Assembly (NCBI GenBank): GCA_014859375.1
Contig: JACUUH010000002.1
Coordinates: 1 to 64,000, forward strand
Direction: 5' to 3'
DNA length: 64,000 bases
From: Gammaproteobacteria bacterium
GTDB lineage: Bacteria; Pseudomonadota; Gammaproteobacteria; Nitrosococcales; Methylophagaceae
How positions within the stretch are numbered: position 1 is the stretch's first letter; each line of letters begins with the position of its first letter. Below are positions 2,168 through 9,802 of the stretch, piece after piece. The translations under genes were made by a program, and so were the position numbers. Below the pieces are notes generated by a model. That model made no database searches. It was given only the letters and a program-made list of their open reading frames with translations, and was not told the origin of the DNA.

Positions 2168-3652
2168 TTAACGATTACCTGACTTTTGCTGTTCAAGTCG
2201 ACGTAAAAACTCACGCATAATATCGTCGTATAAGGCAATGCCAAGATAAGCATCTTCAACGCCACTATCAATATTAGGATTGTCATTAATTTCAATCAGC
2301 ACCACCCGATCACCACTTTGTTTGATATCTAGTCCATAGAGCCCTGAACCGACCAAACGAGCGGCTTTTGTCGCTATTTTGAGTACTTTTTCAGGTACAT
2401 AGCTAATTGGTATTGTCGCAGAAGCACCACTATCGGTACCTTTCTTACCGTTATGATTATAAATTTGCCAGTGGCCTTTACTCATAAAGTATTGGCAGGC
2501 AAAGATCGGTTTGTTATTGAACATACCAATACGCCAGTCATAATCGGTATACATAAATTCTTGTAATAGAATGATTGCTGATTGTTGGAAAAAATCAGCC
2601 GCATGTAGGCGCAGTTCTTCTGATGAATTAACTTTGATGACACCTTTGGAAAAAGCACCATCAGGAATTTTCATAACCAATGGAAACGCAACTTCATTAC
2701 AGATCTTTTCCATACCGGCATCATCATTGCGATAGAGCAAATGTGATTCAGGCATCGGCAAATTATTAGCGGCTAATAATTCTTTAAGGTAGATTTTGTT
2801 GGTGCAACGAATGATCGAGGTTGGATCATCAATCACGATCAAGCCTTCACTTTCAGCTCTGCGAGCAAATTTATAGGTATGGTTATTGGTTGCGGTCGTT
2901 TCACGTATAAACAAGGCATCATATTCAGCAAGACGCACATAATCTTTGGGCGTGATTAGCTCTACGTCGATCCCAATGCGGCGGCCACTTTGAATAAAAC
3001 GTTTTAGGGCAGTGGCATCACTTGGCGGCATTTTCTCTTCAGGATTATGCAAAATAGCCATGTCATAACGGAAACTGCGTTTTTTAGATGGTTTGCGCCA
3101 TAACTTGCGATCAAAGTTATCCAGGGCATTAGCAAAACTATCTTGCTCATTGTCCAACAATCTATCGATAGCACCGGCTTTAACCTGGCTTATCTGCCAA
3201 TGAGTTTTGCAACTGAATTCTATTTCTAATATAGGGCATGGGAACTGGTCATAAATCTGGCGAGCTAATTTCTGTAACGGTTTGATATCACACCGCCCAA
3301 AAAACACATTGACTACAAAATGAGTGTGTTCACTGTTATCGGTGGCCGAGATCAGTTTTTCAAGTTGGGGTGCAAGTTCAGTAATGTCATAACCATATAA
3401 ACTTTTGCGAGATAGATCATTAATGGTACGAATACTGGGAATGACTTTGTGACCCCGTGCTTCAGACACCATTGAACAATAATAGCCTGGGCTTAAGTAA
3501 TCTAAACTGTGACACAGATTAATAACTTGTGCGCGACCTTTGCTGAGTTGCGACGGTTTTTGTAGGTAATCATCAACGGTTACGACTTGAACACTGGGGA
3601 AATACGGTGCCCAATCTTCTTTATTTTCTATAATTATCAAGTGATTAGTCAT
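2168..3652 (-). CDS. RLAN-domain RimK-like ATP-grasp ligase
   Basis: The 494-residue protein has a long N-terminal region of the RLAN type (RimK-like ATP-grasp N-terminal domain, about residues 1-195) followed by a RimK-type ATP-grasp domain (about 205-490). Visible ATP-grasp features are the FPLVMKIPDGAFSKGV strand-loop, the QEFM segment and the metal-binding ending EINDNPN (Glu454, Asn456). ATP-grasp ligases of this group join an amino group to an activated carboxylate. Genes with RLAN domains usually sit beside a GNAT acetyltransferase fused to a papain-like peptidase, and exactly that gene lies here, divergently, at 4871-5980. A role in peptide synthesis or peptide tagging was inferred by comparative genomics; the substrate is unknown. 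No strong ribosome-binding site is seen before the ATG. Confidence 0.88.
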   Translation of the reverse strand: MTNHLIIIENKEDWAPYFPSVQVVTVDDYLQKPSQLSKGRAQVINLCHSLDYLSPGYYCSMVSEARGHKVIPSIRTINDLSRKSLYGYDITELAPQLEKLISATDNSEHTHFVVNVFFGRCDIKPLQKLARQIYDQFPCPILEIEFSCKTHWQISQVKAGAIDRLLDNEQDSFANALDNFDRKLWRKPSKKRSFRYDMAILHNPEEKMPPSDATALKRFIQSGRRIGIDVELITPKDYVRLAEYDALFIRETTATNNHTYKFARRAESEGLIVIDDPTSIIRCTNKIYLKELLAANNLPMPESHLLYRNDDAGMEKICNEVAFPLVMKIPDGAFSKGVIKVNSSEELRLHAADFFQQSAIILLQEFMYTDYDWRIGMFNNKPIFACQYFMSKGHWQIYNHNGKKGTDSGASATIPISYVPEKVLKIATKAARLVGSGLYGLDIKQSGDRVVLIEINDNPNIDSGVEDAYLGIALYDDIMREFLRRLEQQKSGNR

Positions 3653-3819
3653 AACGATGGCCTATAGCCTCACAAAAATGTGGTGGTGTTAAATGTGAAT
3701 AGTAAAGTTATTATTCTCTTTATGTGATATTTATTTTTACAGTAGAAAATAGCGCTAGCGAAAAGTGATTAACTCACCTATTCTTCGCAAAAAAATGTAG
3801 GTTCAGGAGGGCGTTTGCA
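3653..3819. promoter_or_regulatory. Divergent intergenic region
   Basis: This 167-base AT-rich gap separates the ATP-grasp gene (minus) from the DUF2817 gene (plus) and must hold both promoters. A strong ribosome-binding site, AGGAGGG at 3805-3811, serves the DUF2817 start. I see no clear -35/-10 pair and no riboswitch. Confidence 0.5.
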
Positions 3820-4881
3820 ATGTATGCCGATACTATCTTAGACGTGTTCTGTCAGCGTTATAGAGATGCGCATGATACGTTTACTGCCGCGATAGAAACC
3901 AGTTCTATTGTTGAAAAAACCAATAAACATCTACACCCGATGAGAGGTCCGAGTGGCGAAAAACTGTTCTGTGATATTGCTTGGTCTGGCGATCTTAATG
4001 CAAAGAATGTTCTGGTATTAATTTCTGGTCTGCATGGTGTCGAAGGTGGAGTTGGTTCTGCAATTCAAACAGATTTTGTCAGTCGTCATCGACGCTTGCC
4101 TGCCGATGTCTGTGTGGTATTAGTTCATGCTATTAATCCATGGGGTTTTGCCTGGAGTAGTCGTAACGATCATCAAGGTATTGATGTAAATCGTAATTTC
4201 ATTGATTTTAATCAGCAACTACACCAATCAAAGTCTGACAAAATTTGGCAAAAACTGCTTAATAATGACGCTAATATTCAAGAGATCGGAGCAAATCGCG
4301 ACACGTTTGATCTTTTGAGTGAAGGCCAATATAACAATCCATCCGCTTTGTATTATGGTGGCGAACAGGCGAGTTGGTCACGTCAGTGCATTGAGCAACT
4401 AGCTGGACAATTAAAATGTGATCAGCGTGACAAGATCATTGTTGTTGATATCCATAGTGGCTTAGGATCTTATGGTTATGGTGAGTTGATCAGTGATCAT
4501 CCCAGCGATTGTCTGGCAAGACAGCATTTAATTGATATATTCGGTCCGACTGTGACAGAACCACTATTAGGTACTTCAAGTTCAGGCATCAAATATGGTT
4601 TACATGATTATTTTTGGCACGCTCAAGGCGATCATGTTGCTTTTGTGACCTTGGAATTTGGTACTTTCGGCCGTAGTGAGATGTTACGAGCATTATTTGC
4701 CGATCAACAATTACAACAACAAGATGAAATTGATTGGCAAGATGATGACACCTTAGTGATTAAACATGATATGCAGGATTTCTTTTGTCCCGTTGAGAAA
4801 CAATGGCAAGAACTGGTGTTGTTTCGTGGACGACAAGTGATTGAAATGGCATTAACCGGATTAAATCAGCATGACGGATGA
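3820..4881 (+). CDS. DUF2817 M14-like zinc carboxypeptidase
   Basis: The 353-residue product matches the DUF2817 branch of the zinc carboxypeptidase fold. The putative zinc ligands are His72 and Glu75 in SGLHGVEGG and His212 in VVDIHSGLG; substrate-binding DVNRNF lies at 122-127, and Glu279 (TLEFG) is placed like the catalytic Glu of M14 enzymes. The QYNNPSALYYGG segment is also typical of the family. No signal peptide is visible, so it is probably cytoplasmic. It overlaps the next gene (ATG at 4871 inside its last codons), so the two are translationally linked. Its likely job is removing a terminal residue from a peptide handled by the same cluster; that is inference. Confidence 0.87.
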   Translation: MYADTILDVFCQRYRDAHDTFTAAIETSSIVEKTNKHLHPMRGPSGEKLFCDIAWSGDLNAKNVLVLISGLHGVEGGVGSAIQTDFVSRHRRLPADVCVVLVHAINPWGFAWSSRNDHQGIDVNRNFIDFNQQLHQSKSDKIWQKLLNNDANIQEIGANRDTFDLLSEGQYNNPSALYYGGEQASWSRQCIEQLAGQLKCDQRDKIIVVDIHSGLGSYGYGELISDHPSDCLARQHLIDIFGPTVTEPLLGTSSSGIKYGLHDYFWHAQGDHVAFVTLEFGTFGRSEMLRALFADQQLQQQDEIDWQDDDTLVIKHDMQDFFCPVEKQWQELVLFRGRQVIEMALTGLNQHDG

Positions 4882-5980
4882 TGCTGTAATAAGACTGGCG
4901 GAGCTCACTGACGTTAGTCAGTTAGTGACGCTAGAAAATGATTGTTTTGAAACCGATCAACTGTCGCGTCGCAGTTTCAAATGGATGATAACCAAAGCTA
5001 AAGCCTTGTTGCTGGTGGCTGAAATAGAGCAACAAATAGTGGGCTATGTGCTGTTGCTATATCACCAAGGTACATCATTAGGTCGGGTCTATTCTTTAGC
5101 GGTAGCACAAGATCAGCGTAAATCGGGCTTAGCGGCACGTTTAATGACCATTGCTGAACAAGAAGCGTTAGAAGATGGTCGTAGTTTTCTGAGACTTGAA
5201 GTACGTCCCGATAATGTAAGTGCAATTCGACTTTATCAAAAGTTGGGTTATGAAGCCTTTGATGTTATTAGTGACTATTATGAGGATCATGCTGATGCCT
5301 TGAGAATGATGAAAGTATTGCATCATCAGCCTGAGCACATCCAGCAACATGTTGCTCATTATTCCCAAACAACAGATTTTACCTGTGGTCCCGCGTCATT
5401 AATGATGGTGATGAAAACGCTTAGACCATCAATTACATTAGATCGTAGTTTAGAACTTCAGTTATGGCGTGAAGCAACCACTATTTTTATGACTTCGGGG
5501 CATGGAGGCTGTAGTCCTCATGGTTTGGCATTGTCAGCCTATAATCGCGGCTTTGATACGACATTGATAACGAATAGTACGGATGTACCTTTTATCAATA
5601 GTGTCCGTTCTGATCAAAAGAAAGCCGTGGTCGAATTAGTTCACCACGATTTTGAAAAAGCGATAGCAGCATCAACAATTACAACGCGAACTGAGAATAT
5701 TGATGTTGCTATGTTACAAACCGAATTACAGCAAGGTCAATTAGCGGTAGTTTTGATCAGTTCGTACCGTTTAAATCAAAATAAATCACCACATTGGGTC
5801 GTATTGGCATCAATATCAGATACCTTTGTCTATTTTCATGATCCAGATATTGATTGGGAAGAAAATAAAAGTCTGACTGACAGTTTATATATTCCTGTCG
5901 CCCATAAAGAATTCAACCGTATTTTAGGCTATGGTCAACCACGTTATCAGGCAGCGATTATTTTATCTTCGACCAGTTAA
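4871..5980 (+). CDS. GNAT acetyltransferase fused to C39-like peptidase
   Basis: A two-domain protein of 369 residues. Residues about 5-150 form a GNAT acetyltransferase; the acetyl-CoA loop is RKSGLA at 83-88 and the end is the usual NVSAIRLYQKLGY. Residues about 155-369 form a papain-like, C39-type peptidase with Cys172 in TDFTCGPAS, His308 in PHWV and Asp324 in FHDP as the probable catalytic triad. This fusion is the known genomic partner of RLAN ATP-grasp ligases. No export signal is present, so the peptidase domain probably acts inside the cell, either processing a precursor or transferring acyl groups. The start overlaps DUF2817 by 11 bases. Domains are clear; the reaction is unknown. 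Confidence 0.9.
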   Translation: MTDDAVIRLAELTDVSQLVTLENDCFETDQLSRRSFKWMITKAKALLLVAEIEQQIVGYVLLLYHQGTSLGRVYSLAVAQDQRKSGLAARLMTIAEQEALEDGRSFLRLEVRPDNVSAIRLYQKLGYEAFDVISDYYEDHADALRMMKVLHHQPEHIQQHVAHYSQTTDFTCGPASLMMVMKTLRPSITLDRSLELQLWREATTIFMTSGHGGCSPHGLALSAYNRGFDTTLITNSTDVPFINSVRSDQKKAVVELVHHDFEKAIAASTITTRTENIDVAMLQTELQQGQLAVVLISSYRLNQNKSPHWVVLASISDTFVYFHDPDIDWEENKSLTDSLYIPVAHKEFNRILGYGQPRYQAAIILSSTS

Positions 5981-6044: not shown

Positions 6045-6094
6045 GAGCTTGTCCAACCTTGAACTTAGGTCTTTGATAGGCTCAGGGCGAACGG
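6045..6094. repeat. Degenerate dispersed intergenic repeat with inverted arms
   Basis: The right part (CTTTGATAGGCTCAGGGCGA, then ACGG) closely resembles the intergenic element containing TTCGACAGGCTCAGGGCGAA seen in many proteobacterial genomes. The left part GAGCTTGTCCAA (6045-6056) is an imperfect inverted match to TTTGATAGGCTC (6072-6083), 9 of 12 positions. It lies in the gap between the GNAT-C39 gene and the broken PepSY gene. The rest of 5981-6124 holds nothing I can recognise. Confidence 0.55.
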
Positions 6095-7604: not shown

Positions 7605-9727
7605 TTAGTATTTTAAATCAAGTGTTAACTCAACACTACGGGGTTCTCCTACATAATATTGTGTGCCTGATCCTACATAAGCATAAAGTTTGTCAGATAA
7701 ATTTCGTCCACGTAATGTCACATCAAGATGAGAATCGACCCTGTAGCGCGCATAGGCATCAAAAAGAGTGTATGGCGGTAGATACTGTGTATTGGCGTTA
7801 TTAGCTTTAACCGAATCGACATAACGAGTACCAATGCCTAGATCCCAATCTAAACTTGGTTCACTGATTAGCCATAAGTTGGCCACACGTTTAGGAACAT
7901 TCGATGGCGTATTGCCAGCACGTGACACTCCTCCTTCAAAGAATTGATCGTATTCAGCATTGACAAAGGCAATGTTGCCATCGGCACGGATTTTTGATGT
8001 AAATTCAAATGAAGAAGCAAGCTCAATACCTTTCGATGTTTGTTGTCCAACCTGTAGGAATTGAGAGTTATCATTCGGATCGCGCACCAAGAAATTTTCT
8101 CGTACGATATGGTATGCAGCTATCGTGGCGCTACCACGATCATCCAAATAATTGAACTTGGCACCGATCTCAATCTGACGACCTTTACTGATATCAAAAT
8201 TGTCGATAGTACTATTACTAGACGTTGTTAATGTTCCGCCTGGTGGCTCAGACGAGGTGCTATATTGGCTATAAACACTGACATCATCATTGAGATCAAA
8301 CACCAATCCTACGCGACCGGAAAAGGTATCCCATTGACTGGTAGTTGCAGTACTTCCTGGTGACTTGATTAACCTGAAATCGATGTGGTCATAACGAAGT
8401 GCTGTTACTAAAGATAAGCGATTAGTTAAACCTTGGCGGTTCTCAATAAATGCAGATAGCATCTCAACGCGATTGCTACGTCCTTGTTGCAGAGCACCAA
8501 TACCAAGATCGCTAAAATTGCCTGGATCAAAGTTAAAGGGATCAATCACATCAAATACACCAGAGGAGGTTGGAAAGCCGGTATGGTGGTTGACGTTATA
8601 ATCTAAACCAAAAGCCCAATCACTACGCTGATTAAACAGTTCGCCATTATGAGTTAATTCAATGCGGTCTCCAGTCATTTCTTGTTCATGGCGTTGTTGT
8701 AAACCTGAAGAGCGAGTAATTGTAGAATTGGTACTGTTATAGGCATACCCTTCTAAATTACGGTAATCACGCTCAGCTCGGTAATGGTAAAAGGTTTTTT
8801 AACAGAGGTGTTAGTGTTTAGCTGATAGTCGGTAATAGAACGCAACCAACGCACACGTTGCTCATAAATACCATCTTTAACATTGTAGTTTTTATATCGC
8901 GTATTTTTGTCGATAGTTAATTTGCCGATTTGAGGTCGCAGTGTAGGTGTTCCCCAATATGGGTTATCCACTTGCTCTTCCTGATATTCAAAAGCTAGGG
9001 TATGCGTGAGATTATCAGTGATGTCACTTAGCCAGGAAAACGCCATACTGTCTGATTGGCTTTCATTTCGATCAATATAACCATTACTTTCAGCCTTACT
9101 GTAGTCAAAACGGATCCAGTTATGATCATTTAAGGCCTGATTAATTCCGACAGCAACTTTTCTGGTATCAAAACGGCCATAACTAAGTTGCCCGGTAATT
9201 TCGTGATCCTTACGTTCTGCCGTTTTGGTCACATAGTTTAAACTACCACCGACCGAACTTGCGCCATATAAAAATGATGATGGGCCGCCCACTGATTCAA
9301 CGCGATCATAAAGCCATGAATCTACAGGTCTAGCTGCAATAACATAAGCAAGAGGGATCCCGTTGAATAAATGATTAACTTGCGAACCGGTAAAGCCGCG
9401 TAATGATGAAAAAGCACCCCGACCAGGAAATTTAGCAAGATTGACCCCAGGTAAGATATTGGCAACATCTTGTAGATCACGAGCACCAATTTGGTTCATT
9501 ACTACTCTATTGGCAATAGCAACCGAAGCAGGATTTTCTTTTGCAGATAAACCTAATCTGGAGCCAGCTAGTGTCGGCACATCTAAATCAATGAGTGATG
9601 ATTGATGCGTGCCAGTGACAACCAGTGTTGATAATTTATCGACATCATCGGCAATACTGGTATCAGCATAAGCCTGCGATAGTATCCCTATTAAAATAAT
9701 GCTTAAAGCTGTCGGTTTTATTGACAT
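7605..9727 (-). pseudogene. TonB-dependent siderophore receptor, frameshifted
   Basis: Two adjoining reading frames make one receptor. The N-terminal part (to about residue 310) has a signal peptide, TonB box (LSTLVVTGTH), plug and first barrel strands. The C-terminal part (frame of 7605-8678, open back to the junction) carries the remaining barrel and the terminal LDLKY. The frames join at an A6 run on the coding strand (T6 at 8795-8800): adding one A gives a continuous frame reading KKTFYHYRAERDYRNLEGYA, so a one-base loss from an A7 tract is the simplest explanation. The likely start is the ATG at 9725-9727, with GGAG upstream. The repaired length would be about 707 residues. The PepSY gene follows directly and is also damaged. 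Confidence 0.85.
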
Positions 9728-9802
9728 TACGTTCTCCAAATTAATCCTGGAGGCATTGTACAAGTAGCTAAAACCTATAAATATGTTATTTGATTTTTGT
9801 TT

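Follow-up and report, generated by a model that had tools for sequence, protein, structure and literature searches.

We analyzed a 64,000-nucleotide stretch of DNA (the window) from a gammaproteobacterium of the family Methylophagaceae (assembly GCA_014859375.1, contig JACUUH010000002.1, positions 1 to 64,000). We focused on a locus encoding an ATP-grasp ligase with an RLAN domain, a DUF2817 protein and a GNAT acetyltransferase fused to a C39-like peptidase, and we find that the DUF2817 proteins encoded beside RLAN ligases form a dedicated subfamily and are a partner of this module. All three open reading frames (ORFs) described in an earlier note, a first reading of the letters, are present:

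2168..3652, minus strand: RLAN-RimK-like ATP-grasp ligase, 494 aa (RLAN at residues 27-176, ATP-grasp at about 200-474)
3653..3819, no strand: divergent intergenic region between the ligase and DUF2817 genes, 167 bp
3820..4881, plus strand: DUF2817, predicted zinc carboxypeptidase of M14 fold, 353 aa, RLAN-linked subfamily
4871..5980, plus strand: GNAT-C39 fusion, 369 aa (RimI-like GNAT at residues ~6-150, C39-like papain-fold DUF3335 at 162-365)

The DUF2817 and GNAT-C39 genes share an 11 nt overlap in the style of a coupled operon, and the ligase gene is transcribed away from them. An AGGAGG ribosome-binding site lies immediately 5' of position 3820 on the plus strand, and no sigma-70-like promoter match was found within the divergent region. 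The window ligase shares 87% identity with a protein from a metagenome-assembled genome and 78% with one from Methylophaga, its nearest named relative, and the source is therefore probably a methylotroph akin to Methylophaga. PADLOC anti-phage defence models returned zero matches.

Domains, active sites and predicted folds

The ligase matches the Pfam families RLAN (6e-50, 169 bits, cut-off 25) and RimK ATP-grasp (2e-9, 38 bits, cut-off 21), and the GNAT-C39 protein matches DUF3335 (C39-like, 2e-83) and Acetyltransf_1 (5e-17). The window thereby shows both marks of the RLAN-ATP-grasp/GNAT-papain module: a ligase that joins RLAN to a RimK-like ATP-grasp and, in its neighborhood, a fusion of GNAT with the papain-like peptidase DUF3335. 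The catalytic residues claimed to be intact in all three proteins are indeed present and invariant among relatives. These are K286, K328, D372, R374, D442, E454 and N456 for ATP and Mg in the ligase (28 sequences), the E110/Y122 pair of the GNAT, 12 residues apart (24 sequences), Q166, C172, H308 and D324 in C39, and H72, E75, R115, N124, R125, H212, Y264 and E279 in DUF2817 (10 sequences). The Glu/Tyr spacing of the GNAT is that of the RimI catalytic pair E103/Y115, and the DUF2817 residues presumably take the M14 roles of zinc ligands, NR pair, Tyr and catalytic Glu, as assigned by motif and not by superposition. K258 of DUF2817 is also invariant. The nearest relatives of the GNAT are RimI and the archaeal and eukaryotic N-terminal acetyltransferases; its score against the curated RimI model (81.9 bits) lies under the cut-off of 86.4, and its match to TIGR03103, the model for the Ngg protein of the NAGGN pathway, is far under that model's cut-off.

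Structure prediction, proposed in the earlier note for the three proteins, was carried out for DUF2817 and the ligase. DUF2817, a full-length Pfam match (2e-73), gave a model with a mean pLDDT of 87 that aligns with M14 carboxypeptidases at Z 23.2 over 262 residues (root-mean-square deviation 2.8). The predicted fold is thus that of an M14 carboxypeptidase, as had been proposed, and DUF2817 shares this fold and the zinc and substrate residues with the M14 metallocarboxypeptidases, AstE/AspA and CphZ. At the sequence level, solved structures are reached only weakly, with E 9e-4 for the top profile match. The best structure matches of the ligase model (pLDDT 80) include RimK bound to RpsF and ArgX bound to LysW; all those listed are ATP-grasp enzymes of ~300 residues, and they cover the ATP-grasp part only. 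Its nearest folds are those of RimK, ArgX and LysX.

Seven residues hold polyglutamate in Pseudomonas aeruginosa RimK: S7, R8, S14, R64, S68, R189 and N262 (PMC10092738). Of these the window ligase conserves only R64, R189 and N262; S7, R8, S14 and S68 are not conserved, the R8 position being an alignment gap, and an invariant HWQ takes the place of the FRSN-x-H-R loop of RimK. A RimK-type glutamate specificity is therefore not supported, given the loss of four of the seven contacts and of the loop. Because the ATP chemistry is kept and most polyglutamate contacts are lost, the enzyme is RimK-like and not RimK, and from these residue comparisons its incoming substrate is probably other than polyglutamate. 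Accordingly, the label 'RimK ligase' given by the earlier note stands for the fold and the ATP/Mg residues but not for polyglutamate ligation.

An ATP-grasp enzyme together with a C39-fold peptidase is a pairing reminiscent of ribosomally synthesized and post-translationally modified peptides (RiPPs). More specifically, the ligase could cross-link a ribosomal precursor of graspetide type, from which C39 would remove the leader. We consider this very improbable, since no small ORF is conserved across RLAN loci, where only lineage-restricted ones occur, and since both sequence and fold place the RLAN enzyme closest to ligases of the RimK/LysX type. The claim that the cluster has no apparent ribosomal precursor peptide is hence upheld.

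Distribution of the module and its DUF2817 subfamily

We counted strong DUF3335 and full-length DUF2817 matches in a sample of 370 genomes from the class to which the window belongs, and extended the analysis to a phylum sample of 224 genomes, with 30 RLAN genomes outside the class; genes at GC-rich loci were called by third-position GC. Within the class, RLAN occurs in 91 of 370 genomes, including many Pseudomonas, DUF3335 in 63 and DUF2817 in 14. RLAN is present in 62 of the 63 DUF3335 genomes (Fisher 1e-46). Conversely, 62 of the 91 RLAN genomes have the fusion, at least two of these 62 carrying RLAN and the fusion on different contigs. The near-constant neighbourhood of RLAN proteins and the GNAT-peptidase fusion claimed by the earlier note is therefore too strong when viewed from RLAN, whereas from the side of the fusion the association is close to obligate. 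Some lineages keep only the GNAT half, without C39, beside RLAN. Two genomes of one genus have two RLAN loci each (L310/L311 and L312/L313), one with the GNAT-C39 fusion and the other with a short GNAT-only neighbor; in a third genome of this genus (G531), RLAN was likewise matched twice.

Seven of the 14 DUF2817 genomes in the class have RLAN, adjoining in six of the seven, with the gene order RLAN<- ->DUF2817->GNAT-C39 (tandem in one genome). Outside the class, DUF2817 adjoins RLAN or lies a few genes away in 13 of the 30 RLAN genomes (12 from one family, one from another), in the order GNAT-C39 -> RLAN -> (DUF155 ->) <- DUF2817. The earlier note had held that rare adjacency of DUF2817 to RLAN in other genomes would count against its reading, and this is partly the case, because most RLAN genes have no DUF2817 beside them (it adjoins RLAN in 6 of 91 RLAN genomes in the class). 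Its membership in the cluster is nonetheless borne out by phylogeny. In a tree of 64 DUF2817 proteins, all 35 RLAN-linked members and three unlinked ones form one clade (bootstrap 100, SH-aLRT 99), with the 26 others outside; one of the three unlinked members comes from a genome with RLAN elsewhere (G414). The linked proteins come from two classes with differing gene orders, and the full GNAT-C39 fusion is found at 35 of 35 of their loci. In a tree of RLAN, whose membership is mostly from the window's class, DUF2817 is restricted to one of two large clades, with seven gains or losses, six of them forced by well-supported branches. Because of this restriction and these changes, we regard DUF2817 as an optional but specific component.

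RLAN is patchy even within the window's genus, where 6 of 29 genomes have it, some of the genomes being incomplete. No RLAN was found in phages, and 11 plasmid records carry it. One of the plasmids is from P. aeruginosa (ligase at NZ_CP133752.1:38453-39922), pointing to a potentially mobile gene. Such a distribution, with most genomes lacking RLAN and a plasmid copy in P. aeruginosa, would fit the breakdown or detoxification of an incoming peptide or amide, in which C39 and DUF2817 hydrolyse, the GNAT inactivates by acetylation and the resulting fragments are recycled or coupled by the ligase. The balance of two hydrolases and one acetyltransferase to one ligase would fit as well. However, the ligase is the constant component and the hydrolases are optional, and no linkage to a transporter or resistance gene is found, so that we judge this explanation improbable.

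In many different families, tandem GNAT-C39/RLAN pairs have a divergent ArgE gene, and often ArgA as well, next to them (L117, L129, L130, L132, L133, L140-L142, L151, L152, L157, L165, L170-L172 and L299). We count this adjacency toward the small-peptide reading given below, yet read no pathway link from it.

A second partner set, DUF155 and flanking features

The other RLAN clade contains, in a nested position, an alternative module with the gene order solo C39, RLAN, GCS2 and FGase (N-formylglutamate amidohydrolase). The GNAT-C39 fusion is found at 0 of 13 GCS2 loci, and GCS2 or FGase at 0 of the 35 DUF2817-linked loci. The two partner sets, GNAT-C39 with or without DUF2817 on the one hand and solo C39 with GCS2 and FGase on the other, are mutually exclusive, the former being exchanged for the latter in a second lineage. 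In terms of Pfam clans, FGase and DUF2817 both belong to the M14-like zinc hydrolases, and an optional hydrolase of that clan therefore comes with each module. A classical M14 peptidase adjoins three further RLAN loci. Furthermore, the window's own genome has a separate, true RimK gene followed after 6 bp by an AstE/AspA-type M14-clan hydrolase (L281:388-2352, contig C55). RimK-type ligases are thus repeatedly found paired with hydrolases of the M14 clan.

A further partner is DUF155 (PF02582, the RMND1/Sif2-Sif3/Mrx10 family), present in 53 of 370 class genomes, 30 of which have RLAN (Fisher 5e-8). It lies within a few kb of RLAN in about nine class genomes, and occurs at 10 of 12 DUF2817-linked loci of the non-gammaproteobacterial family (loci with DUF155 and RLAN: L102, L104, L105, L126, L128, L143, L173, L175, L181, L242, L268, L270, most of L286-L297, and L316). 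The linked DUF155 proteins come from two deep branches, with at least five forced linkage changes, even inside that one non-gammaproteobacterial family; this count is approximate, since the underlying tree was built in a quick mode and two of its rows are long. DUF155 has hence been recruited repeatedly to the RLAN system, which speaks more strongly for a functional connection than adjacency by inheritance would. DUF155 adjoins RLAN in both module types, and a C-terminal transmembrane helix is apparent by eye. Sequence searches found no relative of DUF155 among solved structures. The Pfam text on RLAN reportedly names GNAT-papain, M20 peptidases and GCS2; to our knowledge it does not name DUF2817, FGase or DUF155.

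Beyond the three genes, GATAGGCTCAGGGCGAACGG lies at 6075-6094 of the window, downstream of the GNAT-C39 gene and in single copy in the window; we take it to be one mismatch off a dispersed repeat of many bacterial genomes. A TonB-dependent receptor occupies two ORFs on the minus strand at 7605-9763 (plug 8753-9763, barrel 7605-8678), split by a frameshift or an assembly error; at the corresponding place a near relative (L121) has a single ORF of 707 aa.

Proposed function and known systems

We hypothesize, tentatively and as the most economical reading, though one that could well be wrong, that the locus encodes a cytosolic module for the synthesis, capping and trimming of a small N-acetyl peptide of non-ribosomal origin. 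In such a pathway, the RLAN-ATP-grasp enzyme would spend ATP on activating a carboxylate, which it would couple to an amine (probably an amino acid). The RimI-like GNAT domain would acetylate an alpha-amine on the product or acceptor, while the fused C39 domain may cleave or transfer an internal amide. DUF2817 would remove a C-terminal residue or de-acylate, for processing or turnover. The proposal builds on the folds and intact sites, on the linkage of RLAN with DUF3335, on the inheritance of DUF2817 together with the module and on the exchange of partner sets in the second lineage. We infer a small peptide over a protein tag from four observations: the second module contributes GCS2, a second amidoligase of glutamate type, along with a hydrolase of acyl-amino acids; the loci lack a linked gene for an acceptor or precursor; the distribution is patchy; and NAGGN provides a worked precedent (PMC8070244).

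Several points weigh against this proposal. Most RLAN loci are without DUF2817, no conserved transporter or regulator is found at the locus, and our literature search found no demonstrated substrate or product of an RLAN system. DUF155 is absent from the window's genome, so that its recruitment speaks to RLAN systems in general rather than to this window. Two further points lean to a protein target: the closest ligase folds, RimK-RpsF and ArgX-LysW, act on proteins or carrier proteins, and the eukaryotic relatives of DUF155 function in mitochondrial translation.

Taken together, these last points raise the alternative that the module tags a protein rather than making a small peptide. The nearest structures of the ligase (RimK, ArgX/LysX) have protein acceptors, RimK and RimB set a precedent for a writer and an eraser (PMC11957791), the window's own genome pairs its true RimK with an M14-clan hydrolase, and the repeatedly recruited DUF155 includes RMND1, which supports mitochondrial translation and, according to one proposal, keeps mitochondrial ribosomes close to where mRNA matures (PMC7564844). 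Against these stand the loss of the S7, R8, S14 and S68 contacts and of the FRSN-x-H-R loop, the absence of an acceptor gene from the locus, GCS2 in the second module, a family acting on free glutamate, and the patchiness within one genus, which would be odd for a ribosome modification. We therefore regard protein tagging as unlikely, though it stays well above detoxification. A narrower form is about as improbable as the latter: RLAN, GNAT-C39, DUF2817 and elsewhere DUF155 might form a reversible peptide-tagging system tied to membrane or translation machinery, in which DUF2817 would be a dedicated eraser and DUF155 a membrane-anchored target or docking factor.

The small-peptide proposal can be set beside known systems. 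In 2009, Iyer et al. predicted that the RLAN/GNAT-papain pair synthesizes or modifies peptides (cited in PMC10318531). The ligase family and the GNAT-C39 partner are the same in the window, to which a dedicated DUF2817 M14 hydrolase is added. RimK/RimABK, responsible for polyglutamylation of RpsF, shares with the window module the ATP-grasp fold, the ATP/Mg residues and the pairing of ligase and hydrolase; unlike RimABK, the window has an extra RLAN domain on the ligase, no RimA and no retropepsin RimB. The operon for the NAGGN osmolyte has genes for a ligase protein of the GNAT family, for an asparagine synthase and for a peptidase (PMC8070244), and the logic of GNAT, ATP-grasp ligase and peptidase, there yielding an N-acetyl dipeptide, is the same in the window. 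However, Ngg fuses the GNAT and the ATP-grasp, which are separate genes here, no AsnO-type gene adjoins the window locus, and the NAGGN peptidase differs in fold from the window hydrolases.

The literature that we found on DUF3335, DUF2817 and RLAN consists of passing mentions. Although predicted in 2009, together with a role in peptide chemistry, the RLAN/GNAT-C39 pair is still an uncharacterised system. As far as the literature shows, and setting the 2009 paper itself aside, the DUF2817 subfamily, the exclusion between GNAT-C39 and GCS2/FGase and the repeated recruitment of DUF155 are new. About a quarter of the sampled species of the class have an RLAN ligase, yet no demonstrated product was found. 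The exclusive modules, the DUF2817 subfamily and the DUF155 recruitment provide a strong functional link for DUF2817 and bacterial DUF155, and these linkage results narrow which mutants and which mass differences deserve a search.

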